Assembly: GCF_028898845.1 (NCBI RefSeq)
Contig: NZ_CP118574.1
Span: forward strand, 558,001-622,000
Direction: 5' to 3'
Source of the DNA: Streptomyces sp. WZ-12
GTDB taxonomy: Bacteria; Actinomycetota; Actinomycetes; Streptomycetales; Streptomycetaceae
Length of the DNA: 64,000 bases
The translations under genes and the position numbers were made by a program. The notes beneath the pieces were generated by a model that did no database searches, had not been told where the DNA came from, and saw only the letters and a program-made list of their open reading frames with translations. Shown one piece after another: positions 50,493 through 64,000 of this stretch. Positions within the stretch are counted from its first letter, which is position 1, and every line of letters starts with the position of its first letter.

Positions 50493-50550
50493 GCGCACGA
50501 CGGCACCAACGTCGGTCGGTCAGTCAGCGTCGACTACCGGTAGTTCGTCG

Positions 50551-50588
50551 TGCCGTGGGCCGGACGTCGAGCGTTCCGGCCCACGGCA
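50551..50588 (-). terminator. hairpin terminator of the large-protein operon
   Basis: TGCCGTGGGCCGGA (50551-50564) pairs perfectly with TCCGGCCCACGGCA (50575-50588), 14 bp with a 10-nt loop, 16 bp past the stop of the fibre-like gene. Confidence 0.85.
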
Positions 50589-50604
50589 TCACGTCCCTGG
50601 ACGC

Positions 50605-52305
50605 TCAGTCGGAAGGAGTGGAAGGGGTGGAAGGGGTGTCGGTACCGGACCCCTGCGACGCGTCCGCCGCGTCGGCGGCGTTGTCCTCGACGAAGTCGGC
50701 GGCCTTGGAGAAACCGGACAGCGGGCTGTCCGCACCGTAGGGGCGCCACAACAGCCTGATCGCCAGCTTGTCGTACCAGATCGAGGTGTCGTCGTGGGTG
50801 AGGTACACGGAGATCGAGTCGCCCTTGCGGACCGGCGCCGTCAGTGCGTAATGCTGCGCTCCGGCTCCCGACTGCCGCAGGATCGGGGCGTCGCACCGAT
50901 ACGTGTACCCGTTCACCCTGACATTGAGGCTGCCCTTGTAGCCGATGTTGTCGTTCTTGCTCGTGTTGTCGTAGCACTGGATGTTGCCGTACAGGACACC
51001 GTCCGTGGATGCCGTTGCCTGATACGGATTCGACGATTGGGGCGCTTGCCCCTGGCCCCACGAGCGTTGATAGGTGCTGCGGTAGCCCTGCACCGCCCCG
51101 GTGAATCCGGCCGTGCCGGCGAACTCGGCGTCTCCCTCCGCCCGGAGCTTACCGTCCACACGCAATCCCCCACCCGCCACGAGGTCGTTCGGTGCGTAGA
51201 CCGTGACGTTGTGGTGGAAGACGGATTCACCGGCCGTGCTCGTTTCGAAGGCGCCGTTGGCCTGGAGCTTCCCGTCGGCCGTCAGCTGCTCCGTGACCTT
51301 GAGGGTCCCTCCGACCGTCGTGTTCCCCGTGACATCCAGCGTGCTCTCCGCCGTGACCGCCCCCGTCACGTCCAGTGTCTGCTGAGCCGTCACCACGCCC
51401 TTAGCGGTCAGCCCACCGCTCACCGTCAGGCTCGCAAGCGTCTGGTCCGTGACACACACCGTCAAGTGATCCCACCGCGTCACGAACCCGCCGTCCGGCG
51501 TGGGCGTCACCGTCTTCAGCGCGAACGCCCTGTCCCGCAGCACCTTCCCGGCCGGAACCGGATACACGCTCCCGCCCGGGATCGAGGCATCCGGCACGCG
51601 CTCCCCGTCCATGTACAACTCGTGGTTGTCGCCGCGCACATGGTGCCACTCCAGCCGTACCGGATCACCGGCGGCGATCCGCGTGGCGGGCGGGCCGCCC
51701 TGTGCCGTGACGGCCACCAGCGCCCGCCCGACCCCCGGCGCGGGGTCCGCCCCGCTGCGGAAGGGGAACTTCGCGACGTCCAGCGTCCCGGTGTTCGGCG
51801 CCTCCGGGATCGTGGAACCCGTCGTCGCCCACTCCTCGATCCCGATCCGGGCGACACCGGTCTTGTTGCTGATCGCGATGTTCTTCAGGGTGATGTACAG
51901 CCCGTCGACGGTGACTTCGCTCGTCCCGCCCGTCGGCTCGACGCTGAACCGCACCTTCGACGAGTCGCCCGTCGCCTCCCCCGCCGCAGGGAACACCGCC
52001 GTCTCCGCCATCGGCACGGCGAGCAGGACATCCGGCTGCGGACCCACGATCGTCCACCCGGACTCCGGCTCGACATACGGCGCGATGCCCTCGCCCGTCA
52101 ACGCCAGGTCCTGGGCCAGGGAGCCGACCGGCAGGACGACGGCGATGCGGCTGCACCGCACCGTCGTGCCGCCGCTGTTGGAGATGACGAGGTCGATGGA
52201 CCCGTAGGCCAGCTCATCCTCGTTGCCGGGGCCGGACTTGGGCGGGCTGACGGTCAGCGGGGTGGGCACGGTCGTCAGGGCGTAGCTCAGCACGCAGTCG
52301 CTCAT
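50605..52305 (-). CDS. fibre-like protein: Ig-like domain, 12-residue beta repeats, jelly-roll-like head
   Basis: A 566-aa protein without signal peptide, last gene of the operon. Residues 1-155 form a beta domain (LVISNSGGTTVRCSRIAVVL). Residues about 170-290 look Ig-like (GDPVRLEWHHVRGDNHEL then MDGERVPD). Residues about 290-405 are repeats of roughly 12 residues (LTVSGGLTAKG, LDVTGAVTAEST, LDVTGNTTVGGT, LKVTEQLTADGK), the style of phage tail-fibre or collar shafts. The last 130 residues before an acidic Ser/Thr/Pro tail (APVRKGDSISVYLTHDD) resemble a small jelly-roll head with a Cys pair. ATG 52305 overlaps the stop of the upstream gene. It looks like an adhesive or structural trimeric fibre; family unknown to me, role inferred. 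Confidence 0.72.
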   Translation of the reverse strand: MSDCVLSYALTTVPTPLTVSPPKSGPGNEDELAYGSIDLVISNSGGTTVRCSRIAVVLPVGSLAQDLALTGEGIAPYVEPESGWTIVGPQPDVLLAVPMAETAVFPAAGEATGDSSKVRFSVEPTGGTSEVTVDGLYITLKNIAISNKTGVARIGIEEWATTGSTIPEAPNTGTLDVAKFPFRSGADPAPGVGRALVAVTAQGGPPATRIAAGDPVRLEWHHVRGDNHELYMDGERVPDASIPGGSVYPVPAGKVLRDRAFALKTVTPTPDGGFVTRWDHLTVCVTDQTLASLTVSGGLTAKGVVTAQQTLDVTGAVTAESTLDVTGNTTVGGTLKVTEQLTADGKLQANGAFETSTAGESVFHHNVTVYAPNDLVAGGGLRVDGKLRAEGDAEFAGTAGFTGAVQGYRSTYQRSWGQGQAPQSSNPYQATASTDGVLYGNIQCYDNTSKNDNIGYKGSLNVRVNGYTYRCDAPILRQSGAGAQHYALTAPVRKGDSISVYLTHDDTSIWYDKLAIRLLWRPYGADSPLSGFSKAADFVEDNAADAADASQGSGTDTPSTPSTPSD

Positions 52306-55300
52306 CGGCGGTCTCCTTCTGTCTGGTCGTCGGCCTTCGCAGGACGCAGGGTGAGGCGGCCGGTGCGCAACGTCGGCGCGGGATACGGGTGGTGCGGTTC
52401 GCCGTCGGACGCGTAGGTGGTGGCCTCGCTCCACGTGTCCGCCGTCTCGTTCTGCGCCCACGTCCACGTGCCGTACCGGTCGGACGGGCGCGGTACGACG
52501 AGCGCGGGCGGCTGCTCCCCGGCCCGTACTCCCGCCGGGTCCGGTACGTACTCGCTCACCGGCAGCGGGCCCAGCCGGAAGGACACCGGGAGTTCGGCCA
52601 GTGGCGGTTCCACGAGCCGGGCGGGCAGGCGGACTTCGGCGGCCGGCAGGACGTCCGTGGTGGCGTGTGTCGTGCCGCGCGGGTCGGCGAGCAGGGTGAG
52701 GTAGGCGGCGTTCCGGTGGTCGGGGTCGCTGCCCGGGGGTCGGGCGGGCAGGGTGAGGGAGGCGCCCGTACCGATCGGGTCGAAGTACTGCCGTGCCTCG
52801 TCGGGGAGTTCGGCCTCGTCGAGGACCGTGTGCAGCACCCGGTAGTCCGTGTCGCGGTGCTCGCCGTGGAAGTAGCCGACGAGTCCGTCCGTCAGCTCGT
52901 TGCGTTCGCCGAGCCGGACCGGCCAGCGGTAGCCGGGGTAGGCCGGTGCCTGCGGATCGCGCAGGTTCTCCCACGAGGGGTCGGTGTGCGGCGGGCCGTC
53001 GAGGTCCAGGTCGAAGCGGACGCGCATCAGCGCGAGCGGCCGTCCGACGAGCACGCTCGGGGTGTGCGGGGGCGCGGCGTCCCCGATGGGGGCGGTGGTG
53101 GACAGGGTGCGGTCGATGACGGTGAGGAGGGAGCGCAGGGCGGCCGGGCCCCGGTCCGGGGCGACCAGCGCGGTCAGGAAGCCGTGCAGGATCGGGTGGT
53201 TGTCCCGCAGGTCGTCGATCTCGCGGTAGCGCGAGTACGGCAGCGGGTGCCAGGTCACCTGATGGGTGCCGCTGGGCGGCAGGGTCGTGCGCAGCTCGCC
53301 GAGCGGGGTGCCGTCGGGGCCGTACGCGTACAGTGCGCGGTCCAGGTACCCGGGGACGAGCCAAGCGGACACCGGGGTCGTGTCCGGGTCGCTCGCGGTC
53401 GTCAGCGGGTTGAGGTCGTTCCGGGCGTCGAGCAGGGTGAAGCCGGCCCGGGCGGGCTGGATCAGCCGGGGTGTGAGTTGCGTGAAGCGGTACCAGGTGG
53501 GCGGGTTGATGGTCCAGTGGCCCCGGCCGGGGTCTCCCGGGTCCTGCCACGAGGGGGTCAGTTCCTCGGGGAGTTCGGGTGCGAAGCGGCGGGCGGGTAC
53601 GCCGACGCCGATCACGTCTCCGGGCTCGTTCCCGGGCGCGAACCGCAGGGCCAGCGGGTCCGGGAAGATCGCGGGCAGGGCGTGCCCGAAGCGGTCGATG
53701 ACGGCGAGCCGGGCGAAGGCGAACTGGCCCGCGCGCAGCGGCTGGTAGGGGCTCTCGTTCCAGCCGGTGAACGGGCGCGGGAGAGCGCCCGGGTTGGGCG
53801 GCAGGGTGCGGCCGGACGCCTCGGTGAGCGCGATGCGCACGTCGTCCGGCAGCGCGGAGTGGGGGTTGAGGGTGGCAGGGGTGGACGCACGGGCGGCGAG
53901 CTGTTCGGTGAAGCCGGCGAGGGGCTGCGAGAACCAGTCGGCGTCGTCCTCGACCTGCCGGGCGAGTGCCCGCAGCGCGCCGGCTCCCGGTCCCGGGTGG
54001 GTACGGGCGTACTGGCGCAGCGCGGCGGCCATGGTCTCCGAGGGCGTCGGGGTGAGGAACTGGCGGCCGCTGAGGCTGAGGGGGACGGCGTGGTCTCCGG
54101 TGCCGAGCCAGTGGTACTCGGTGCCGTCGAAGCTCCAGTTGGCGCGGTCCGCATGGCCACCGTCCGGGTCGCCCCGCCACTCGATGGGGAAGTAGTCGAC
54201 CTTCCACTCGAAGAACAGGGGCTGCCAGGGCTGCCGCCACTGTGCGGTGTACGCGCCAGGGGTGCCGATGGCGTTGGTGTGCGGGTCGCGCATGGCCGTG
54301 GCGAGCGCCTGCCAGTCGCTGAAGCCGGTGGCCCTCGCGAGCGTTCGGGCGTTGGCGGACGCGAGGTGGAAAAGCTCACGCAGCAGGGCCGACAGCACGC
54401 CGGACAGCCCGTCGGGAGACGGGAGGTCGGGCGGCTTCGGGGTCTGCGCGTCGCTCGCGGAGACCGTGCTCCCCGCGACCCGTACGCCGGTGACGAGCGC
54501 GTCCGGCCAGCGGCACGTCAGCGGCGGGTCCTCGTCCTCCTCGCTGGCGTCGTACTCGCCTTCGCGCACCGCGTACGGGTCGGCGGCCGCCACGTGTTCC
54601 GGGTCCGGCGGGAGGGGGCGGTCCTTCGTCCCCCGGATCACCACGACCGGGTCATTGGGCCGGTGGTAGCCGGGCAGGACAGCGCGCTTGAGGACGACTT
54701 CGCCCGGCGGGAGGCCGTGGTCGATCTGGTACTGGCCGATGGCGTCGGCGAGTTGCTCGGGGGTGTCTTCCCAGGGGATCGCGGCACGCAGCCGTGTCAC
54801 CCGCTCGCGCTGGTCCTTCGCCGCCCTGGTGGCGTCCCCCACACGTGCCGTGAGGTCCTCGCGGTATGTGCCGCCCGGCTCCCCCGGAGCGTCCGGCACC
54901 TTCGGTAGGTTCGCCGCCCACCACAGGTCGTACAGCCGACGCTGCGCGGCGATGAGGTCCTGGACGGCGGCGTCGTGCGCGGCCTGGTCCTCGTTGAGCT
55001 TGGCGAGGGCCCGCGCGTAGGCGCTGCGTACGGCACGCGGCCGACGCCGGCGCGCGGTCGGGTCCGGCGTGCCGGGTTGCTCGGCGTCCTCCAGCACCCA
55101 GGTGTATCCGCCGGGCTCGGGGGTGAACCACGAGGCGTGCAGGGCGCGTTCGGCCTGGAACTGGCCGTCGGGTTCCTCCAACAGGTCGAGGACGCCGGAG
55201 TGCACGGCCGAGAGCAGGGAGGCGAGCTCGGGCGGGGATCCGGCGCGGCGCGCCGCGTACTCCTTGATGGCCTTGGTGGCGTGCTCGGTGTTGTTGCCCA

Positions 55301-56150
55301 CGCCGATGGTGACGTAGTCGGGCCGGTCGGAGGCGGGCATGCCGCTGCCCCGGCGCTGCCACTGCACGTCGAGGACGGTGCCGTGGCAGACCGTACGGGC
55401 GGTGTCGGGTGCCGTGCCCGTGGCCTTCCAGTGGAGCGCGGCCAGCCGCTCCGCGAGGCCCCCGGCCAGCGGGTCGGCGGCGGGGTCGCCGTACCAGCCC
55501 GCGACCAGGTAGTTGAGCTCATAGACGGTGTCCGGGTCGAGGTCGTCCGTGCGGTCGTGCACGGAGAACACGTCGAGGTTGTACGGCTGGTACGCGGCGA
55601 AGGTGGGCAGCCCCGGGCCGACGGCGGTCAGGAACAGCCCACCGGGCGTGCCGGGTTCGCTCCATGCACCGTCGGCGAGGCTGATGCGGCGGCCGATGCG
55701 GGTGAGGCGGCCGTCCCGGTCCATGTAGGTGCTGGAGCCGAGGGCCGGGTCCAGGTAGTCGCTCTCGACGATCCAGCCGGTGTCGGTCCGCTCCCCCGAG
55801 CCGGTGTCGACGGCCTGCCGGACGACGAGCCAGCGGTTGGGCACGAGCGGGAAGACGGGGACGCCGTCGCCCCTCTCGTCCACGCCGTGGGTGAGGGCTT
55901 GCGGCAACTGCCAGTGCAGATAGACGCCTTCGCGGTCGGGGTCGGCGTTGAAGGCCGTGTCGGTGTTGGAGAACGCGGGCGGTTCGGGCGACAGGTTCAG
56001 CCGGGTGAGGGCGTAGTTGGCCTGCCAGCGCTGGAAGACCTCGGCGTGGCGGACGCGTTCGTTGACGGTGAGCGCCTCGACTTGCAGGGGGACGACGAGG
56101 GGATGTGTCACGGCGCGGTGCTGCCCTTCTTCGGGGGTCTTCGCGGTCAT
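52302..56150 (-). CDS. 1,282-aa protein of unknown function
   Basis: A large soluble protein with no signal peptide or membrane segment. Early motifs are REGVYLHWQLPQALTHGVDE (about residues 73-92) and VFPLVPNRWLVVRQAVD (about 98-114). I have a sense of these from other bacterial hypotheticals next to DUF6603 genes, but cannot name a family. Residues about 375-495 are a charged helical, coiled-coil-like insertion (ARALAKLNEDQAAHDAAVQD, ATRAAKDQRERVTRLRAAI) in an otherwise beta/loop-rich, Trp- and Pro-rich protein. A second conserved-looking block reads WQPLFFEWKVDYFPIEWRGD near 640. Start and stop overlap both neighbours by ATGA, so it is made in step with them, as expected for parts of one complex. 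Confidence 0.7.
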   Translation of the reverse strand: MTAKTPEEGQHRAVTHPLVVPLQVEALTVNERVRHAEVFQRWQANYALTRLNLSPEPPAFSNTDTAFNADPDREGVYLHWQLPQALTHGVDERGDGVPVFPLVPNRWLVVRQAVDTGSGERTDTGWIVESDYLDPALGSSTYMDRDGRLTRIGRRISLADGAWSEPGTPGGLFLTAVGPGLPTFAAYQPYNLDVFSVHDRTDDLDPDTVYELNYLVAGWYGDPAADPLAGGLAERLAALHWKATGTAPDTARTVCHGTVLDVQWQRRGSGMPASDRPDYVTIGVGNNTEHATKAIKEYAARRAGSPPELASLLSAVHSGVLDLLEEPDGQFQAERALHASWFTPEPGGYTWVLEDAEQPGTPDPTARRRRPRAVRSAYARALAKLNEDQAAHDAAVQDLIAAQRRLYDLWWAANLPKVPDAPGEPGGTYREDLTARVGDATRAAKDQRERVTRLRAAIPWEDTPEQLADAIGQYQIDHGLPPGEVVLKRAVLPGYHRPNDPVVVIRGTKDRPLPPDPEHVAAADPYAVREGEYDASEEDEDPPLTCRWPDALVTGVRVAGSTVSASDAQTPKPPDLPSPDGLSGVLSALLRELFHLASANARTLARATGFSDWQALATAMRDPHTNAIGTPGAYTAQWRQPWQPLFFEWKVDYFPIEWRGDPDGGHADRANWSFDGTEYHWLGTGDHAVPLSLSGRQFLTPTPSETMAAALRQYARTHPGPGAGALRALARQVEDDADWFSQPLAGFTEQLAARASTPATLNPHSALPDDVRIALTEASGRTLPPNPGALPRPFTGWNESPYQPLRAGQFAFARLAVIDRFGHALPAIFPDPLALRFAPGNEPGDVIGVGVPARRFAPELPEELTPSWQDPGDPGRGHWTINPPTWYRFTQLTPRLIQPARAGFTLLDARNDLNPLTTASDPDTTPVSAWLVPGYLDRALYAYGPDGTPLGELRTTLPPSGTHQVTWHPLPYSRYREIDDLRDNHPILHGFLTALVAPDRGPAALRSLLTVIDRTLSTTAPIGDAAPPHTPSVLVGRPLALMRVRFDLDLDGPPHTDPSWENLRDPQAPAYPGYRWPVRLGERNELTDGLVGYFHGEHRDTDYRVLHTVLDEAELPDEARQYFDPIGTGASLTLPARPPGSDPDHRNAAYLTLLADPRGTTHATTDVLPAAEVRLPARLVEPPLAELPVSFRLGPLPVSEYVPDPAGVRAGEQPPALVVPRPSDRYGTWTWAQNETADTWSEATTYASDGEPHHPYPAPTLRTGRLTLRPAKADDQTEGDRR

Positions 56151-58504
56151 CGGGCCGTCCCGCGGGTGAGGAGCTGACGGCGGGGCGCGTTGACGAGCTG
56201 GACGGCCAGGCCCGCGGGGCCGAAGCGGTCCGCGGCCGACTGACCCAACTCGGCCAGACGGGCGCCGAGTTGGCGCAGCAGCCCGTCGGCGGCGGTGGGG
56301 CGCAGGTCGAGGACGGCGCGCCGGCCCGCGGGGTCGGGGCGCAGATACGCGTCGAGTCCGTCGGGGCCCTCGGGGTGCGGGAATGCCTCGCCGTCGATCT
56401 GCCGGGCGACGGCGGGCGGGTCCACGCGCCGCAGGTTGATCACCCGCCGCTCGCCCTGGCTGATGTCGACGCCGAAGGACAGGCCCTCGGGCGGCTCGGC
56501 CAGTTCCACCTCGTCGGGCACCTGCTCGAAGAGCACGAGCAGGACGTCGGGGCCGAGGACGTCCTGCCGGAGTACGGCGATCGGGGTGCGGGTGTCGTCA
56601 CCGTGGCCCCGGTACGGGCGGACGAGCAGCCCGGGGCATTCCTGGACGAGCGCGGACCGGATGAGCACGCCCGCGCGGGGGGTCGGCGCCTCGTCGTCAC
56701 CGCGTGCCCAGGGTGCGGCGATCCGGGCGAGGGCGGCGTCGGTCTCGCCGGTGAGGGCGATGCCCGCCGCGCCGGAGACGAGCGCGGTGAGCCAGCCTTC
56801 GTCGACGTAGAACAGGCGCAGGGACTCGGCGGGCAGGGCGTTCTCGTCGGGAACGAGGTCGGTGAACGGGATGGTGTGCAGCAGGCGCAGCCGCTGCAAC
56901 CAGGCGCTGATCGGGGCAGCGGCGTCGGCGAGTTGGGCGGTGAGGGCGGTGCGCAGGGCGACCGGTGGGTCGGCGAGCAGCTCGGCGGTCCGCGCGACCC
57001 GTGCGGCTCCGCGCCGCCCGGCGGTCGGGGTGCGCCGGAAAGGCTCGGGCGGGGGCGCGTGGCGGGACTGAACGGGGTGCGTACCGGCCCGTAGCAGCCG
57101 TGCGGCGGCGCCGTCGGCGGCGAGCTCCTCAAGGAGGGTGCCGAAGGGGCGGGGGCCGAGGGCGCGTTCCGCCGCCCCGCCTGTCCCCCTCGCCCCAAGA
57201 CCCACCGCCGCCAGCCGCTGCGCCAACACCGCCGCCCGGGTACGGGCCTTCGCGTGCCACGCGGTCAGCATCGCCGCGAAGTCGGCGTCGGCGAGGGCCA
57301 GTGCGCGGCCCAGCGTCCAGGCCGCTCCCCAGCCCGCGTCGAACAGCCCCCACGCCTTCTCGTACGCCATCAGCTGCGCGGCGCTCGTCCAGCCGGCGGC
57401 GGGTGGGGTCGGCAGCGGCTGCGCGGGCTCGGCCGTGAACGGACCCCGGTACCAGGCGTAGCTGCGCTCGCCGGTCTCCAGTCCGTAGGCCAGCGGCACC
57501 CGGCCGGAGGCCAGCCGGGCGCGGGCGGTGGTGTACGCGGCGGGATCGGCCCCGGCGGGCGGTTCGGCCGCGGGCACGGGTGTGCGCAACAACAGGTCGC
57601 GTTGCTTGTGCTCCTCGTCGGAGTCGAAGAGGAAGTGCCGGACCCGGCCGACGAAGCCACCGTTCGCATCCGGATTGCTGGTGAAGGACCAACTCCGCAG
57701 CGCGGCCAGGCGGATCCGTACGTCGGCGGTCAGCTCTCCGGCGTCCGCGTCCGCCAGGATGGAGCGGCAGCCCTCCAGGGCGACGAGGTGCGCGGCGTAG
57801 CGGACCTCGTGCTCGCGGTCGGGCAGCCGGTTGGCGACGACGACCGCGTAGGTGCCCTCGGCGAGCTGTTCGCCGCGCAGCCCGGTGTCGGGGCGGACGT
57901 CGCGGACGTGGATCAGGTGCCGGAGCTCGTCGGTGCGCGGGACGATCGTGGCGAAGACGTCGCCGGGGATGTCCACGGTGTGGCAGAGCGCCGTCGGGTC
58001 GCCCTCGATCTGCGAGGGTGCGATGCGGGGGTGGCGTACGCCTCCGGCGTCGGTGAGGAGTTCCGCCGCCGTCATGGGCACGGTCAGGGCCGCGGACTCG
58101 GGGTCGTCGGGCAACTCGCCCTCGGCGAACAGGAGCAGGGCGAGCCAGGGTTCCTCGGGTGCGGCGTCCAGAGCGGTCCCGGATTCGTCCAGGCGTCGCA
58201 TCCACGGCAGGAGCGGATCGGTGAGCGTGAGGTGCGCGAGGGTCGTGCGGTAGTCGGAGCGGGCCTCGGGTGCCGGGTTGACGGCGTGCACATGCTCGTC
58301 GGCGAGGGCGAACTGCGGGGCGCGGACCTCGAAGGTCTCCTCGACGGGTACGAGGTAGTCGTCGGCGCCTGCCACGCCGGGCAGGGTCTGCGTGGCCCGT
58401 ACGCGGTAGAGGCCGGCGTTGATGGCGGGTTCGCGGTTGTCCTGGAAGTGCAGGACGAAGCTGGGGTCGGTGACCCGCGCGGGGGCGCGGCGCTGGTCCG
58501 TCAT
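56147..58504 (-). CDS. 785-aa protein of unknown function
   Basis: A soluble protein with no signal peptide. The N-terminus is beta-rich (INAGLYRVRATQTLPGV, then VEETFEVRAPQFALADEHVH, residues about 28-75), followed by LTLTDPLLPWMRRL and EEPWLALLLFAEGELPDDPE (about 95-135). The C-terminal half is mostly helical and Ala/Leu/Arg-rich. No enzymatic motif is visible. The sequence VNPAPEARSDY before LTLTDPLLPW resembles unassigned proteins of similar clusters in other phyla (from memory, unverified). The gene overlaps its upstream and downstream neighbours by ATGA. Codon use equals that of neighbours. Confidence 0.7.
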   Translation of the reverse strand: MTDQRRAPARVTDPSFVLHFQDNREPAINAGLYRVRATQTLPGVAGADDYLVPVEETFEVRAPQFALADEHVHAVNPAPEARSDYRTTLAHLTLTDPLLPWMRRLDESGTALDAAPEEPWLALLLFAEGELPDDPESAALTVPMTAAELLTDAGGVRHPRIAPSQIEGDPTALCHTVDIPGDVFATIVPRTDELRHLIHVRDVRPDTGLRGEQLAEGTYAVVVANRLPDREHEVRYAAHLVALEGCRSILADADAGELTADVRIRLAALRSWSFTSNPDANGGFVGRVRHFLFDSDEEHKQRDLLLRTPVPAAEPPAGADPAAYTTARARLASGRVPLAYGLETGERSYAWYRGPFTAEPAQPLPTPPAAGWTSAAQLMAYEKAWGLFDAGWGAAWTLGRALALADADFAAMLTAWHAKARTRAAVLAQRLAAVGLGARGTGGAAERALGPRPFGTLLEELAADGAAARLLRAGTHPVQSRHAPPPEPFRRTPTAGRRGAARVARTAELLADPPVALRTALTAQLADAAAPISAWLQRLRLLHTIPFTDLVPDENALPAESLRLFYVDEGWLTALVSGAAGIALTGETDAALARIAAPWARGDDEAPTPRAGVLIRSALVQECPGLLVRPYRGHGDDTRTPIAVLRQDVLGPDVLLVLFEQVPDEVELAEPPEGLSFGVDISQGERRVINLRRVDPPAVARQIDGEAFPHPEGPDGLDAYLRPDPAGRRAVLDLRPTAADGLLRQLGARLAELGQSAADRFGPAGLAVQLVNAPRRQLLTRGTAR

Positions 58505-61500
58505 CGGGCGGCCCCTTCCGAGGCGGTGGCGGCGAACACGGTGTAGAGGGCAGCGGAGGCGACGGTGCCGGGCGGTAGCTGCCAGTGCCCGGTGGCGATC
58601 GGCGCGTTGTCGTGGATCTCGACGACGGTGATGGTCGCGTCGTCGCAGGCGACGAAGGCGCGGGCGGCGTCCGGAGTGAAGGTGACGGACAACGGGCGGG
58701 CGTCGAGGGGGAGTTCACCGAGGAGGGCGCTGCCGCTGACGACCGAGACGGCGGAGCCGTGCAGGACCCAGGCGCGGTCGGCGGGGTCGAGGGCGAGGGC
58801 GCGGGGGTCGGCTCCGATGGCGACGTCGTACTCGACGGTGGTGACGGGCGGCGAGCCGGGGCGCTCGTAGACCGTGACCACCTGCCCGGTCTCGCCGACC
58901 ATCCGCAACACGACGGCGCGACGGGCCGAGTTCGTGAGCATGGCCAGTGCGGTGCCGCGTTGCGGGAAGTTGTACGGCGTGTACGAGGCCCCGGGGGTCG
59001 GCACCGGCATCACCTGTACCTGGCCGTTGCTGCCCGCCGCCGCACCGTAGACGTACACCCGGCCGGACTGGCCCGGCGTGAGGAACGTGGGTGTCGCGGG
59101 CCCGTAGACCACTCCGAGCTTCGAGCCGGTGGAGGTGTCGTACGTGACGGTCTTGCTGCCGTCGTTGGCGTTGACGTACAGCCGCCCGGCCTCGACGTCG
59201 ACCGCGATGCCACCGAAGCTCTGGACGTCCTGCCGGTCGACGTCCGTGTGAACGGGATCGGCGCCTCCGGCGAGGTCCACTGAGGCCGCGGCGACCTGAG
59301 CCGGACGGGCCACGACCGCCCGGGAGTTGTCGCGTGTGACCGCGAACGCCGTCGGCTGCCCGACCAGTTGGATTCCGGTGCGCGGCGGCCGTACCCGCTG
59401 GGCGACGACGTCGATGACCGCCAGCTGTTTCGGGTCCCTGCCGACCGCGTAGAGCGTCGAGCCGTCCACCGAGGTCGCCGCCAGGTACGGGCCCGCCTGG
59501 CCTACCGGGGCCCGGCCGACGACGGCCGCCGTGTCCGGGTCGACGGACAGGATGGTCCCGGTGGTGTCGTCCAGGACGAGGACGACGGGCCCGGGGGCGG
59601 GCGGTTGGGGGTCCTCGGTGAGCAGCAGCGGGTCCGCGTCGAGTCCGGCGGTGCGGGCCTGCTCGGCGTATGCGCCCACCGTGCCGTTGGGCAGCGGGGT
59701 GTCGGGGCAGAGCCCCGCCAGGACACCGTGCATGCGGGTGCGGGCCGAGCCCCCGGCCAGGTTGGCGAGCTGTCCGGCGAGTACGCCCACCCCCGCGCCG
59801 AGCGGTTCGGCGAGCTCGACGGGCGAGCCGGTGGGGCCGGCGTTCGGGTCGAGCGGGAGCGCGGCGTCGGGGTTGAGCTTCTCCGTGGCGAGGTCGCGCT
59901 CGGCGATCGGGCCGAGGTTCTGGCCGTTGGTCTCGGGCGGGGGGACGGTGATGCGCAGACCGGTGCGGTGGTCGAGGAGTGGTTCCTGGCCGAGGGTGTC
60001 CTTTTGGGCGACGTCGGGGTCGCCCCACAGCGCGAACGGCACATTGCCGTGCTCCACGTCGACCTGCCACTTGCCGTCGTTCGGGAGCGACTGCCAGGAA
60101 GCGACCTGCCGGCGGCGGGTGTTGCTGTACTCGACCGTGACGTGCAGCAGCCCGTCGATGCCCTTCTTCTGCATGGGCCGGATGTCGACGGTGCTGTGCC
60201 CCTCCGGCTCCCGGTCGTTGAACTGTGCCTGTGCCGCGGGGACGACGCTGGAGACGGCGAAGGAGAAGCCGGCCGGGTCGGCCAGCCACGGCTCCGTACC
60301 GGCCTTGACCCTCGCCGCCCGCAGAGCCGGGTCGGCGTCGGGGTCGGTGAGCAGGCCGGTGAGCGGGTGCGCGGTGAGCGGGGCCTCGGGCGGGAGGAGT
60401 TGCGTACGGAACTCGTCCCAGGTGAGCGCCGCGGGACCGGACAGCGAGGCGCCGAACTTGACGGTGACCTTGATGAAGACGAACTTCGCGGTGACCGTGC
60501 CGCCCGTGGGCGGCCCCCACAGGTCGAGCGAGGCCCCGATCTCGCCGCTGACGGTGAACAGCAGCTTGACGCGGGCGCCCACGCGGAGGGAGATCCCGGC
60601 GCGGAAGTGCAGGGGTGCCCACTGGATGAGCAGATTGGCCTGCGCGGTCAGCCATGCCTCGACGTTCCCGGCCTTGTAGCGCACGTCCAGCATGCCGCCC
60701 GCCATGACGGCGTTGGGCGTGAGCGCGAAGTAGGCGCCGCCGCTGACGGTGACGGCCGAGCCGACGGACCAGGTGAAGCCGAGACGCGGGACGACCGGGA
60801 AGTGGCCGGGCTTGGTGTAGTCGGGGTGGTAGCCGCCGACGGTGAGGACGAAGTCCCCGGCGTGCGGGCTCGGCCCGAACCAGGAGTAGAAGGCGAAGCC
60901 GCCGGTGAGCACGCAGGACGGGTCGATGACGTAGGAGTCCACGAGCTGGGCGGTGGCGGCGAGTTCGCCGCGCGCGGACTGGTAGACGATCCGCAGGTCG
61001 ACGCCGACTTGGGCGTATTTCTTCGCGCCCTTCCTCGGGAAGCTCGCGGTGGCGCGGCCGATGAGCGCGAGGGTGAGGGAGTTGCCGACTTCGAGGAGCA
61101 GCAGGACGCGGGCCTGCACGAACTCGAAGGAGGTGAAGTCGATGCCGCCGGCCAGCCAGATCTGGCCTTCGGCGGGCGTGACCCAGGGGTTGGGCCCGCC
61201 GGTGAGCACCGGGAGCGTCTTGAGGGGGTCGTCGTCGAGGCCGCCGTCCAGGCCGGTGACGAGGGGGAATTGGGCGATCTCGGTCTGCTCGGGGACGCGG
61301 ACGCTGCTGTTGTAGCCGAAGCCGAGGGCGAAGCCGGTGACGCGGAACGGTGGCGGCCCGCCGAAGGTGCCCTGGAGACGACCGAAGGCGAAGAACGAGG
61401 TCATGCCGTCGCCGCGCCGCTGGTACGCGCCGAGCGCGAGCGCTCCGAACCTCGGCATCTCGACGACGAGCAGGCCCTCGATCAGGATCGTGTAATCGTC

Positions 61501-63876
61501 CGGCGGGGGCTGGCGGTTGAGGAGAGCGCCCGCGATGTGCAGCGGGTTGCGGCGCAGATCGACGGTCAGCCCCTGGAGGCGGGGTTCGGCGCTCATGGTG
61601 TCGAGGTCCAGGGCGATCCCGAGCCCGATGACGCCCAGGGTGAACCCGGAGGCGCCCATGCTCGCGTCGAACATCACCAGCACCTTGCCGGAGTCGAAGC
61701 CGGCGCCGATGCGTTGCAGGTGCAGGGGTCCGAAGGAGCGGCCGATGTCGGCCCACGCGGCGGACTCCGGACCGCCGCTGCCGCTGTCCCTCAGCGCGAG
61801 CTGTTGCTGCCCGCCTCCCCCGAAGGAGACGGCGAGCGGGTCCTGTGCCGCGCCCGCGACCTCGTACGGGAGGGTGAGCACCGCTCCCTTGGGCAGGCCG
61901 GACCCGGAGTCGGGCAGCCTGCCGCCGGTCCAGCCGGTGGCGTCGAGGTCGGCGTTGACCAGTGCGATCTGGGCGGTGGTCAACGCGCCGCCGGTGACGA
62001 GGAATTGGATGCCGGTGATGCCGACGTCCACGCCCGGCGGGATCTGGCCCCCGACGAGCGGTAGCTGGGACAGCTTGGTGGGGCTGAGGTCCGCGATGTT
62101 CGCGGCGACGAGCAGGACGAGGGCGCGCGGGGTGCCCGGTACGGACGCGACGACGATGCCGCCGCCGGCCTCGGTGGTGGCGGACAACAGCAGCCGCCCG
62201 GCCGTCCTGTCGTAGCGCAGGCCGACGGAGGCCAGGGCGGGCAGGAGTCCGGCGGGGACTCCCGCGGGGATGGACAGCCCGACGGCACCGGCGAGTTCAC
62301 CCGCGGTGACGGCGGGGGTGCCGGTCCAACGGGCGGTGAGGACACGGCCGGTGGGGTCGCTGTCGTAGTCGACGGCGAACTCCAGGACGCGCTCGGTCTC
62401 CTCGTCGAGCGGGACGGTCAGCCGCAGCAGTCCGGAGACCCGGGTGTGCCCGGGGGTGTGGTCGACGGTGACGGTGAGGGAGACGGGGATCTCGTCGACG
62501 GTGAGGGCGGTGGTGCACGCGAAGGTGAAGTGGCCGTGGGTGTCGAAGGCGACGGAGAGTTCCTCGACGGTCAGATCGCGCAGGGCTTCGGGTACGTCGA
62601 TGCCCAAGTGGCCCATGATGGCGGCCGGTTGCAGACCGACCGCGTGCGCGGTGAAGGCCCACCCGTCGGTGGAGGACCAGGTGCCGGCGACATCCAGCAC
62701 CCCCGCGTCGAGCTGCCACCGCGCCGCGAGCCCGGCCAGGGTCACCCCGGCCTGGTGCGAGACGGTGAGCACGACCTGGCCGAGCCTGATGCCGGTGACG
62801 GGCTCCCAGACGTCGGTGAGGGCGAGGTCGAGTCCGTAGCCGCGGTTGCCCGCGTCGGAGGCGAGTTCGGCCCAGAGGGTGAGTTCGCTGACGGTGAGGG
62901 TGGCGGGGACGGGGATGCCGGGGAAGCGGTCCTGGAGGAGTTGGCCGGCGTTGACGGGCCGGACCAGGGTGCCGGTCAAGGAGCGGTCGGGGAGGCCGAT
63001 TTCGACGTCGATGGCGATGTCGTCGGCGAGTTCGACCGTGCCGCCGAGCGTGGTGAGGAGCTGGGGACCGGCGAAGGGGCTGAGCACGGAGAACTCGGCG
63101 TGGAGGTTCCGCACCGTGAGTCCGTCCAGCGGGCTCCACTCCCGGTCGAGTCCGACGGCCAGTTGAACCGTGAGGAGGCCACCCGTGCCGGCCGTCTGCG
63201 CGGAGCCGTTGCCCACTGTGTAGGCGACCGCGAGGGCGGTGAGCGTCAGGCCGGTTCCGGGTGCGAGGTCGAGCGGCAGGTCGAAGCCGCCGGTACCAAG
63301 GGCCGCGAAGGCCGTCAGCTCGTCCAGTGCCGTGAGGCGTACGGGCGTGAATGCGGCGCCGAGCCGCCAGATGGTGCCGTGTGCGGGCGGATAGCCCCAC
63401 AGGTACGGCTTGGGGTCGGCCTGCGCGCCGGGGAAGTCCAGTTCGGCGCCCGCGCCCACCAGAGCCTCGGACTGCTCGTTGAGGGCCGGTTCCACACCGA
63501 GCACCAGGTGCAGGGCGCCGAGGCCGAAGCGCTCCAGCGGGATGAGGGCGTCGCGGAGTTCTTTGGGCAGGTCGGGTGCGTCGGCGGACAGGGCGGCGTC
63601 GATCCGTACCCCGACGACGACGCCCTTGCCGGTGTCGGCGAGGAACCGTACCGCTGTGTGCGCCTCCGTACCGCTTGCCAGTGGCACGGTGCCGACGGCC
63701 GTGAGCCGGTCCACGTCGATCGCCGGCGCGCGCACGTGCAGTACGCCGTCGGCGAGGTGGTCGTGGAACAACTCCTCGGTGGGCTCCAGTTCAAGGAATT
63801 CGGGTGGGACGGTGAGTTCCGGCAGACCTACGGCGGCCTGCAGGGTCGCACGCAGCGTCTCGACGGTCAGCGCCAT
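58501..63876 (-). CDS. 1,791-aa DUF6603-like giant protein with C-terminal beta-propeller
   Basis: The largest protein of the window. The first 650 residues are repetitive amphipathic beta strands (TLTVSELTLWAELASDAG, GIRLGQVVLTVSHQAGVTLA) without enzymatic motifs. Residues about 680-1150 match what I know as DUF6603: GRLQGTFGGPPPFRVTGFAL then GFGYNSSVRVPE near 850, QIWLAGGIDFTSFEF near 905, and long strands after it. From about residue 1428 to the end, repeated units such as VLVLDDTTGTILSVDPDTAA and GIAVDVEAGRLYVNANDGS form a YncE/YVTN-like beta-propeller. ATG 63876 follows GGAGG; no signal peptide. Function of DUF6603 is unknown; the propeller suggests protein or polymer binding. Overlaps the next gene by ATGA. 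Confidence 0.75.
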   Translation of the reverse strand: MALTVETLRATLQAAVGLPELTVPPEFLELEPTEELFHDHLADGVLHVRAPAIDVDRLTAVGTVPLASGTEAHTAVRFLADTGKGVVVGVRIDAALSADAPDLPKELRDALIPLERFGLGALHLVLGVEPALNEQSEALVGAGAELDFPGAQADPKPYLWGYPPAHGTIWRLGAAFTPVRLTALDELTAFAALGTGGFDLPLDLAPGTGLTLTALAVAYTVGNGSAQTAGTGGLLTVQLAVGLDREWSPLDGLTVRNLHAEFSVLSPFAGPQLLTTLGGTVELADDIAIDVEIGLPDRSLTGTLVRPVNAGQLLQDRFPGIPVPATLTVSELTLWAELASDAGNRGYGLDLALTDVWEPVTGIRLGQVVLTVSHQAGVTLAGLAARWQLDAGVLDVAGTWSSTDGWAFTAHAVGLQPAAIMGHLGIDVPEALRDLTVEELSVAFDTHGHFTFACTTALTVDEIPVSLTVTVDHTPGHTRVSGLLRLTVPLDEETERVLEFAVDYDSDPTGRVLTARWTGTPAVTAGELAGAVGLSIPAGVPAGLLPALASVGLRYDRTAGRLLLSATTEAGGGIVVASVPGTPRALVLLVAANIADLSPTKLSQLPLVGGQIPPGVDVGITGIQFLVTGGALTTAQIALVNADLDATGWTGGRLPDSGSGLPKGAVLTLPYEVAGAAQDPLAVSFGGGGQQQLALRDSGSGGPESAAWADIGRSFGPLHLQRIGAGFDSGKVLVMFDASMGASGFTLGVIGLGIALDLDTMSAEPRLQGLTVDLRRNPLHIAGALLNRQPPPDDYTILIEGLLVVEMPRFGALALGAYQRRGDGMTSFFAFGRLQGTFGGPPPFRVTGFALGFGYNSSVRVPEQTEIAQFPLVTGLDGGLDDDPLKTLPVLTGGPNPWVTPAEGQIWLAGGIDFTSFEFVQARVLLLLEVGNSLTLALIGRATASFPRKGAKKYAQVGVDLRIVYQSARGELAATAQLVDSYVIDPSCVLTGGFAFYSWFGPSPHAGDFVLTVGGYHPDYTKPGHFPVVPRLGFTWSVGSAVTVSGGAYFALTPNAVMAGGMLDVRYKAGNVEAWLTAQANLLIQWAPLHFRAGISLRVGARVKLLFTVSGEIGASLDLWGPPTGGTVTAKFVFIKVTVKFGASLSGPAALTWDEFRTQLLPPEAPLTAHPLTGLLTDPDADPALRAARVKAGTEPWLADPAGFSFAVSSVVPAAQAQFNDREPEGHSTVDIRPMQKKGIDGLLHVTVEYSNTRRRQVASWQSLPNDGKWQVDVEHGNVPFALWGDPDVAQKDTLGQEPLLDHRTGLRITVPPPETNGQNLGPIAERDLATEKLNPDAALPLDPNAGPTGSPVELAEPLGAGVGVLAGQLANLAGGSARTRMHGVLAGLCPDTPLPNGTVGAYAEQARTAGLDADPLLLTEDPQPPAPGPVVLVLDDTTGTILSVDPDTAAVVGRAPVGQAGPYLAATSVDGSTLYAVGRDPKQLAVIDVVAQRVRPPRTGIQLVGQPTAFAVTRDNSRAVVARPAQVAAASVDLAGGADPVHTDVDRQDVQSFGGIAVDVEAGRLYVNANDGSKTVTYDTSTGSKLGVVYGPATPTFLTPGQSGRVYVYGAAAGSNGQVQVMPVPTPGASYTPYNFPQRGTALAMLTNSARRAVVLRMVGETGQVVTVYERPGSPPVTTVEYDVAIGADPRALALDPADRAWVLHGSAVSVVSGSALLGELPLDARPLSVTFTPDAARAFVACDDATITVVEIHDNAPIATGHWQLPPGTVASAALYTVFAATASEGAAR

Positions 63877-63886
63877 GGCAAGCCTC

Positions 63887-64000
63887 CTACTCGTACGAGA
63901 TCTCGTAAGTGCCGGCGCCGTCGCGGTCGATCCACAGGATCCAGTCGCGGCCCGTCCATTCGCCTGCGGGGCTGCCGGGGGCTGCCGGGTCCGGGGGAAG
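63887..64000 (-). CDS. C-terminal end of a further gene of the large-protein operon (partial)
   Basis: The frame enters from the right edge and ends with EWTGRDWILWIDRDGAGTYE and a stop at 63887-63889. Only 37 residues are visible. The stop is 10 bp before the start of the DUF6603-like gene on the same strand, so it is the upstream member of the operon. The W-rich end looks like a beta strand; nothing more can be said. Confidence 0.6.
   Translation of the reverse strand, partial: LPPDPAAPGSPAGEWTGRDWILWIDRDGAGTYEISYE

Follow-up and report, generated by a model that had tools for sequence, protein, structure and literature searches.

The stretch of DNA analysed here (the window; 64,000 nucleotides, G000:C1:558001-622000) lies in the 9.5 Mb genome of Streptomyces sp. 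WZ-12 and carries at its right-hand end a minus-strand operon encoding a putative ComEC-type hydrolase of the metallo-beta-lactamase (MBL) fold, a protein with a DUF6603 domain (P1), two large proteins with no family assigned (P2 and P3) and a fibre-like protein (P4). We propose, at a probability of about 0.45, that this operon could specify a modular targeting particle with an enzyme payload, not derived from contractile tails. A conserved, co-inherited scaffold with an exchanged recognition end and a changing enzyme end would be organized as expected of a device for delivery or targeting.

An earlier note on this DNA had described five co-directional genes of giant size joined by ATGA overlaps, and both the open reading frames (ORFs) and a reading of the minus strand bear this out (Table 1). 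Four whole minus-strand ORFs of 1791, 785, 1282 and 566 aa (4424 aa in total) meet in exact ATGA overlaps at 58501-58504, 56147-56150 and 52302-52305, joining P1 to P2, P2 to P3 and P3 to P4, an arrangement that indicates translational coupling of the core genes; the MBL gene lies 10 bp upstream of the DUF6603 gene. Third codon positions of the five genes are 88–93% G+C, with an overall content of 65–75% (window 70%), and none of the five contains a TTA codon. The strong terminator that the note had placed after P4 is upheld as far as its hairpin goes (z -3.74, more stable than all 200 shuffles), but this hairpin lacks a T-tract and a terminator scan at the operon 3' end found none. A crude hydropathy test detected neither signal peptide nor anchor in the five own proteins, in agreement with the note as regards signal peptides.

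Scanning genomes with 22 relatives of P3 gave 183 confirmed stretches, the best 80 of which were kept and correspond to 79 loci; with the window's own locus these form a set of 80 in which P3 is present by design, since the loci were found through it, and in which gene limits were set with a purpose-written codon-usage caller. The set is drawn from Actinomycetota, plus five loci from other phyla. P3 is accompanied by DUF6603 in 78 loci, by P2 in 79 and by P4 in 74, and the loci without one core part (L012, L033, L040, L051, L055, L060 and L070) have a contig end there, within a few hundred bases at most. The order DUF6603-P2-P3-P4 and the strand are constant, save in L065, where the P4 genes come first. 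Flanks are otherwise not conserved, the largest non-core cluster comprising 6 loci; flank ORF clusters 0 and 1, considered as an extra core gene, were discarded, being opposite strands of a single site in the same six loci. The set thus recurs across phyla, and the ground on which the earlier note had allowed its idea of a multi-protein system to be refuted, genes without conserved co-occurrence, fails. Among the best 80 of the 183 stretches the closest locus is that of Streptomyces albospinus, with identities of 98% (MBL), 96% (DUF6603), 95% (P2) and 96% (P3).

In a phylum sample of 396 genomes, where P2 and P3 searches scored only two candidates per genome, DUF6603 was found in 12, P3 in 4 and strong P2 matches in the same 4, all of which have DUF6603, P2 and P3 mutually adjacent by coordinates. 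Because strong P2 and P3 matches coincide and DUF6603 occurs elsewhere too, the P2-P3 pair looks like the fixed core of the set. Other P2 matches, in G009 and G051 (E 7e-5 and 6e-4), were taken as chance, their ORFs looking glycosyltransferase-like by eye. Across the 64 loci having all parts, pairwise distances correlate with those of P3 at r 0.98 for P2, 0.95 for DUF6603 and 0.93 for the P4 base, and at r 0.41 for the P4 distal part, a figure that saturation may lower; all four correlations beat 999 permutations. These distances indicate that the four core parts are co-inherited. On a midpoint-rooted P3 tree of 31 chosen rows, Streptomyces rows are dispersed and rows from other phyla are nested within Actinomycetota, and P3 occurs in 8 of 72,556 plasmid records; tree scatter and plasmid carriage together fit horizontal spread of the operon. 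A stretch on a Paenibacillus sonchi plasmid (L086:9951-15302) holds relatives of P2 and, over two ORFs, of P3, with neither DUF6603 nor P4 found there, and is perhaps a decaying copy.

The description of P4 as fibre-like stands: it matches a phage tail-fibre PHROG profile (E 1.9e-5), next to a Bactofilin match (E 0.08) that lies under the cut-off. Among 64 aligned P4 proteins, chosen mostly from a set of 100, this PHROG is matched by 1, the window strain's own; one P4 relative weakly matches a baseplate-wedge profile. Compared with S. albospinus in 40-residue blocks, P4 is 92–98% identical up to residue 280 and 0–38% beyond, and its head is 75% identical to the L052 head, the two bases being 25% identical. 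Counted on 110 non-redundant proteins with distal parts of at least 60 aa, 35 of the 89 pairs whose bases share 85% identity or more have distal parts that are less than 45% identical or do not match. These comparisons indicate that P4 heads are exchanged between strains. Sharing of heads across distant bases is suggested by the head-only comparison; a stricter search, which asked for at least 55% identity over 80 residues between distal parts whose bases are below 45% identical, yielded no such pair. PDB profiles returned nothing for the P4 head, F5/8C domains occur in 3 of the 64 proteins, and of three short genes beside P4 in L071 the one tested encodes a tail-collar protein (E 4e-14). An extra fibre-like gene of ~370–385 aa with its own repeat start lies directly 3' of P4 in L010, L019, L025, L026, L037 and L068 (that of L026 has no Pfam match), L073:13998-19736 holds three consecutive P4 genes whose distal parts look by eye propeller-like, not like shaft plus head, and an M60 peptidase gene is found 61 bp downstream of P4 in L006.

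The slot at the other end of the operon, defined as a same-strand gene at most 100 bp ahead of the first DUF6603 gene, is occupied in 24 of the 80 loci; 2 loci show no DUF6603. Its contents include MBL genes in 12 loci, hemopexin in L045 and L053, a trypsin-like gene in L071 (E 2e-7) and, at L077:3-2042, a gene running off the locus start that combines an HExxH motif, read by eye, with an MBL-like part (E 1e-5); the metal motif of this part seems degenerate on inspection. An MBL gene also precedes DUF6603 in two loci beyond the 80 (pSCL4 L085 and L098), and in L077 two DUF6603 genes flank one that is ADP-ribosyltransferase-like (Pertussis_S1, E 3e-8; Scabin-like, E 4e-4). Outside the 100-bp rule stand a hemopexin gene at 143 bp in L042 and a subtilase gene at 145 bp in L055, the latter with a signal-peptide-like start and perhaps unrelated. 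On a P3 tree of 37 chosen rows the MBL label undergoes 6 gains or losses, so the slot has repeatedly been refilled or emptied. Judged by sequence, the first gene changes between loci.

Here the slot holds the MBL gene, cut by the window edge and read whole in the extended locus. The rightward extension suggested in the earlier note thereby completed the fifth gene, and the note's view of the operon as non-enzymatic, with no catalytic motif, has to be given up: the full fifth gene (in L002) encodes an MBL protein with the motifs ISHPDEDH (HPDEDH) and GHHGSKTS (HHGS), and that view applies at best to the four uncut genes. Residues H91, D93, D95, H96, D234, H267 and H268 are kept in 11 of 11 whole MBL copies and the family profile matches ComEC structures at E 6e-16, identifying the product as a putative ComEC-type MBL-fold hydrolase; the MBL domain of ComEC is a nuclease, according to PMC12455585. 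The first gene shares with ComEC the MBL metal motifs and the profile match to solved chains, and differs in being a separate protein without a membrane channel: none of 12 MBL proteins shows a transmembrane (TM)-like stretch, and the ComEC/Rec2 NCBIfam equivalog scores 29.3 bits against a cut-off of 190.05. Two NCBIfam equivalogs for MBL proteins of anti-phage systems, Avs1a (AVAST type 1; 19.0 bits, cut-off 420) and 6A-MBL (19.8 bits, cut-off 220), likewise stay below threshold.

The DUF6603-like beta protein with a propeller that the earlier note had recognized holds firmly for its first half, PF20248 matching P1 (residues 712-1209) at 470.9 bits, above the curated cut-off of 27 bits, and 33 of 33 aligned relatives; the propeller is hinted at by an NCBIfam match to C-terminal residues 1429-1527 (E 6e-4, far under the cut-off), and a lactonase-type propeller occurs in 2 of the 33 relatives. 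DUF6603 strands are two-faced (mean hydropathy +2.2 versus -0.8, z 10). A P3 homologue of 1146 aa was modelled as a whole chain (pLDDT 85.7), and Foldseek returned nothing for it in PDB and BFVD at E 0.001 or better, a result that does not of itself prove a new fold. Against PDB profiles P2 and P3 had no match, and the best E values were 0.95 for DUF6603 and 0.088 for P4; P2 has no family match in Pfam, NCBIfam, PADLOC or PHROGs, and in Pfam, at E up to 1, P1-P4 yielded just DUF6603 and the weak Bactofilin match. In the libraries searched, no core protein appears to belong to a described delivery system. The UniRef name 'Baseplate protein J-like' of a P2 relative (P0222) was set aside, with no Pfam support at E up to 10.

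Table 1. Features of the operon, in window numbering.
Feature	Position	Strand	Basis
MBL cargo gene, 3' end (putative ComEC-type MBL-fold hydrolase, 410 aa)	63887..64000	-	metal motifs, profile matches
Whole MBL gene, running past the window edge	63887..65119 (L002:13887-15119)	-	extended locus read
P1, DUF6603 protein, 1791 aa	58501..63876	-	PF20248, 470.9 bits; ATGA overlap with P2
DUF6603 domain, P1 residues 712-1209	60250..61743	-	homologue model: meander of long amphipathic beta strands
P1 C-terminal beta-propeller-like part, ~residues 1430-1790 (approximate limits)	58507..59589	-	weak NCBIfam match
P2, core protein of 785 aa, no family assigned	56147..58504	-	found in 79/80 loci
P3, core protein of 1282 aa, no family assigned	52302..56150	-	homologue modelled
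P4, fibre protein of 566 aa	50605..52305	-	tail-fibre profile match
P4 conserved base, residues 1-283	51457..52305	-	96.8% identity with S. albospinus
P4 exchangeable distal part (fibre repeats and head)	50608..51456	-	blocks from residue 281: 0-38% identity
P4 head module, residues 406-545	50671..51090	-	75% identical to L052 head
3' hairpin after the operon, without T-tract	50546..50593	-	z -3.74

In the proposed particle, P2, P3, the DUF6603 protein and the P4 base would form a scaffold of fixed ratio built in the cytoplasm, from which P4 would project a fibre whose distal head is swapped between strains to suit different surface targets. Where a first gene is present, it would supply the enzyme payload, in this strain a nuclease or phosphodiesterase of the ComEC-type MBL kind. 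Release may occur by lysis, a route suggested by the lack of visible signal peptides; the fibre would then attach to the target, the amphipathic DUF6603 sheet could engage the target membrane and the enzyme would act there. Assembly into one particle, an extracellular place, membrane engagement and delivery are what we infer. Only tentatively, and with some doubt, do we advance the wider possibility of a new class of non-contractile delivery particle, with a P2-P3 scaffold lacking known structural relatives, DUF6603 as a membrane-active sheet, and exchangeable heads and payloads (nucleases, peptidases and one ADP-ribosyltransferase-like protein), spread horizontally in Actinomycetota and at least five other groups.

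Several observations weigh against the targeting particle. The main weakness is that the slot is empty in 54 of the 80 loci (4 cut inside or at the DUF6603 start). Some occupants are assigned by matches under the cut-off, namely the EEP (DNase-I-like) gene of L015 (Pfam E 0.0038), one of 2 such genes with that of L076 (53% identical), and the M91-peptidase-like genes of L062 and L063 (E 0.001 and 0.007), the latter with HQMVH where HELVH is expected. An M91-like gene beside an extra DUF6603 copy in L017 also falls just under the cut-off (E 3e-5); that of L068 is identical to it and on the same chromosome, and that of L040 was assigned by similarity, with no Pfam match. The slot genes of L078, L080 and L081 have no assigned kind, the first lying near an ABC-transporter gene and perhaps unrelated, and no immunity or release gene recurs around the loci. 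The top Foldseek match of DUF6603 is maltoporin (E 1e-3), with fold matches at an rmsd near 10 Angstrom, at which a barrel, a lipid groove and a soluble sheet are indistinguishable. By the crude hydropathy test, TM-like stretches occur in 10 of 91 DUF6603 proteins and hydrophobic N-terminal stretches, taken from the model to be a beta strand, in 31 of 79 P3 proteins; these stretches make a membrane role inside the producer possible. An EEP label for the slot gene of L049, given by eye, was dropped, the gene having no Pfam match and no similarity to those of L015 and L076 (phmmer, hhalign), and a tree count for EEP (3 changes), in which L049 had been scored EEP, is not relied on.

The strongest rival, though we judge it rather improbable, is a surface-bound enzyme-fibre complex, in line with the surface structure or adhesion device that the earlier note had considered: a surface or matrix structure of hypha, spore or biofilm whose scaffold would remain on the producer. 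Its fibres would hold on to substrate or to neighbours, and the enzymes would break down DNA or polymers as food or in defence, with no injection. Fibre heads and the F5/8C, hemopexin and collar modules fit adhesion, a ComEC-type MBL fits DNA degradation, the M60 peptidase gene of L006 suits such a structure, and the bearers, as named in the scan, are mostly filamentous soil bacteria. Against it, the five own proteins show no signal peptide or anchor, and M91-like and ADP-ribosyltransferase-like enzymes, found among the neighbours, usually act inside cells.

Intracellular anti-phage defence, in which the large proteins would detect phage and then set free or switch on the MBL or another enzyme, seems unlikely. 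The PADLOC models best matched by the MBL protein are LmuA (9.1e-11, 39.5 bits, without a curated cut-off), RTasMBL and Avs1a, among others, and the patchy presence of P2 and P3 and the plasmid carriage of P3 would suit defence; however, the shared MBL fold, seen in the ComEC match, can account for the PADLOC hits, P1-P4 match no PADLOC model at E up to 1, Lamassu partner proteins included, and a head-exchanging fibre would be unexpected inside the cell.

Extracellular contractile injection systems (eCISs) carry effectors that vary. The operon is like them in having many genes, a changing candidate effector and a fibre with conserved base and variable head; passages of PMC12923769 describe eCIS fibres with a conserved anchor and a variable receptor-binding part, and P4 resembles them as compared by layout alone. 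That the operon is an accessory cassette, adding an alternative fibre and effector to a contractile injection system (CIS) elsewhere in the genome, is nonetheless very unlikely. A sheath match occurs in 39 of 48 operon-bearing genomes (those of 49 of the 79 fetched loci) against 95 of 150 genomes of the strain's own family (Fisher p 0.02, the groups being unmatched for taxonomy), which leaves room for a link, but 9 of the 48 have none: sheath genes are not required by the operon. The own genome has six sheath matches, the nearest Phage_sheath_1 match on the contig lying ~3.1 Mb from the operon, and large ORFs around five own sheath genes have no homologues in operon loci. A cassette would also leave P2, P3 and DUF6603 unexplained; these three match no known eCIS part, and apart from weak PHROGs matches of MBL and P4 to tail profiles, no tube, baseplate or AAA ATPase family was found among the five operon proteins (Pfam, NCBIfam, PHROGs). 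The contractile-tail-like accessory part that the earlier note had entertained is thus disfavoured. Two sheath genes on the second contig (G000:C2:65376-65747 and C2:293858-294229) have identical scores and frame lengths, which suggests a duplicated phage or CIS region.

Least likely of all is a carrier or storage complex without a conflict role, handling for example lipid or polymer by the DUF6603 sheet, which leaves head exchange and the changing first gene unexplained.

Tc toxin complexes (TcA-TcB-TcC) combine giant signal-less proteins, encoded in one operon, with a propeller-like part and an enzyme payload. The operon shares with them the giant signal-less proteins, a propeller-like part and an enzyme gene; TcA, TcB and RHS families were not found in P1-P4 (Pfam, E up to 1). 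Polymorphic toxin systems, according to passages of PMC3482391, exchange toxin-type enzymes, NleD-type metallopeptidases included, as the operon slot appears to do; the operon, by contrast, encodes its enzyme in a gene of its own, the first, and not as a C-terminal toxin domain, and no recurrent immunity gene was seen. P4 is like phage tail fibres in its repeat-rich shaft, exchanged heads and single tail-fibre profile match. A prophage origin was rejected, as P3 matches 0 of 50,697 phage records (tblastn) and a pattern scan of IMG/VR confirmed none.

Titles and abstract openings of open-licence papers yielded nothing on DUF6603 (PF20248) or on such an operon, and passages of PMC7159879 contain nothing on it; the earlier note's candidate for a multi-protein system not previously named is borne out to this extent, as a fixed set with a fibre. 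If the targeting-particle proposal is true, the operon would represent a widespread bacterial enzyme-targeting machine, independent of contractile tails and Tc toxins, with naturally exchanged heads and payloads. Even as a surface or defence complex, it would provide the first genomic context for the P2 and P3 families and for one Pfam DUF, and its presence in a culturable Streptomyces gives a clear experimental handle.

DUF6603 also occurs apart from the core genes. Of the 12 sampled genomes carrying it, 8 (G051, G108, G193, G206, G288, G326, G344 and G362) have no P2 or P3 match, pointing to a second context, and four DUF6603-only loci give a weak score or no match against the operon's own DUF6603 profile. 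Extra copies near the operon, mostly of ~350–600 aa, are found in L014, L016, L017, L022, L023, L040, L063, L068 and L077; several of them adjoin cargo or fibre genes, and an extra DUF6603 protein is possibly a cargo-specific partner.

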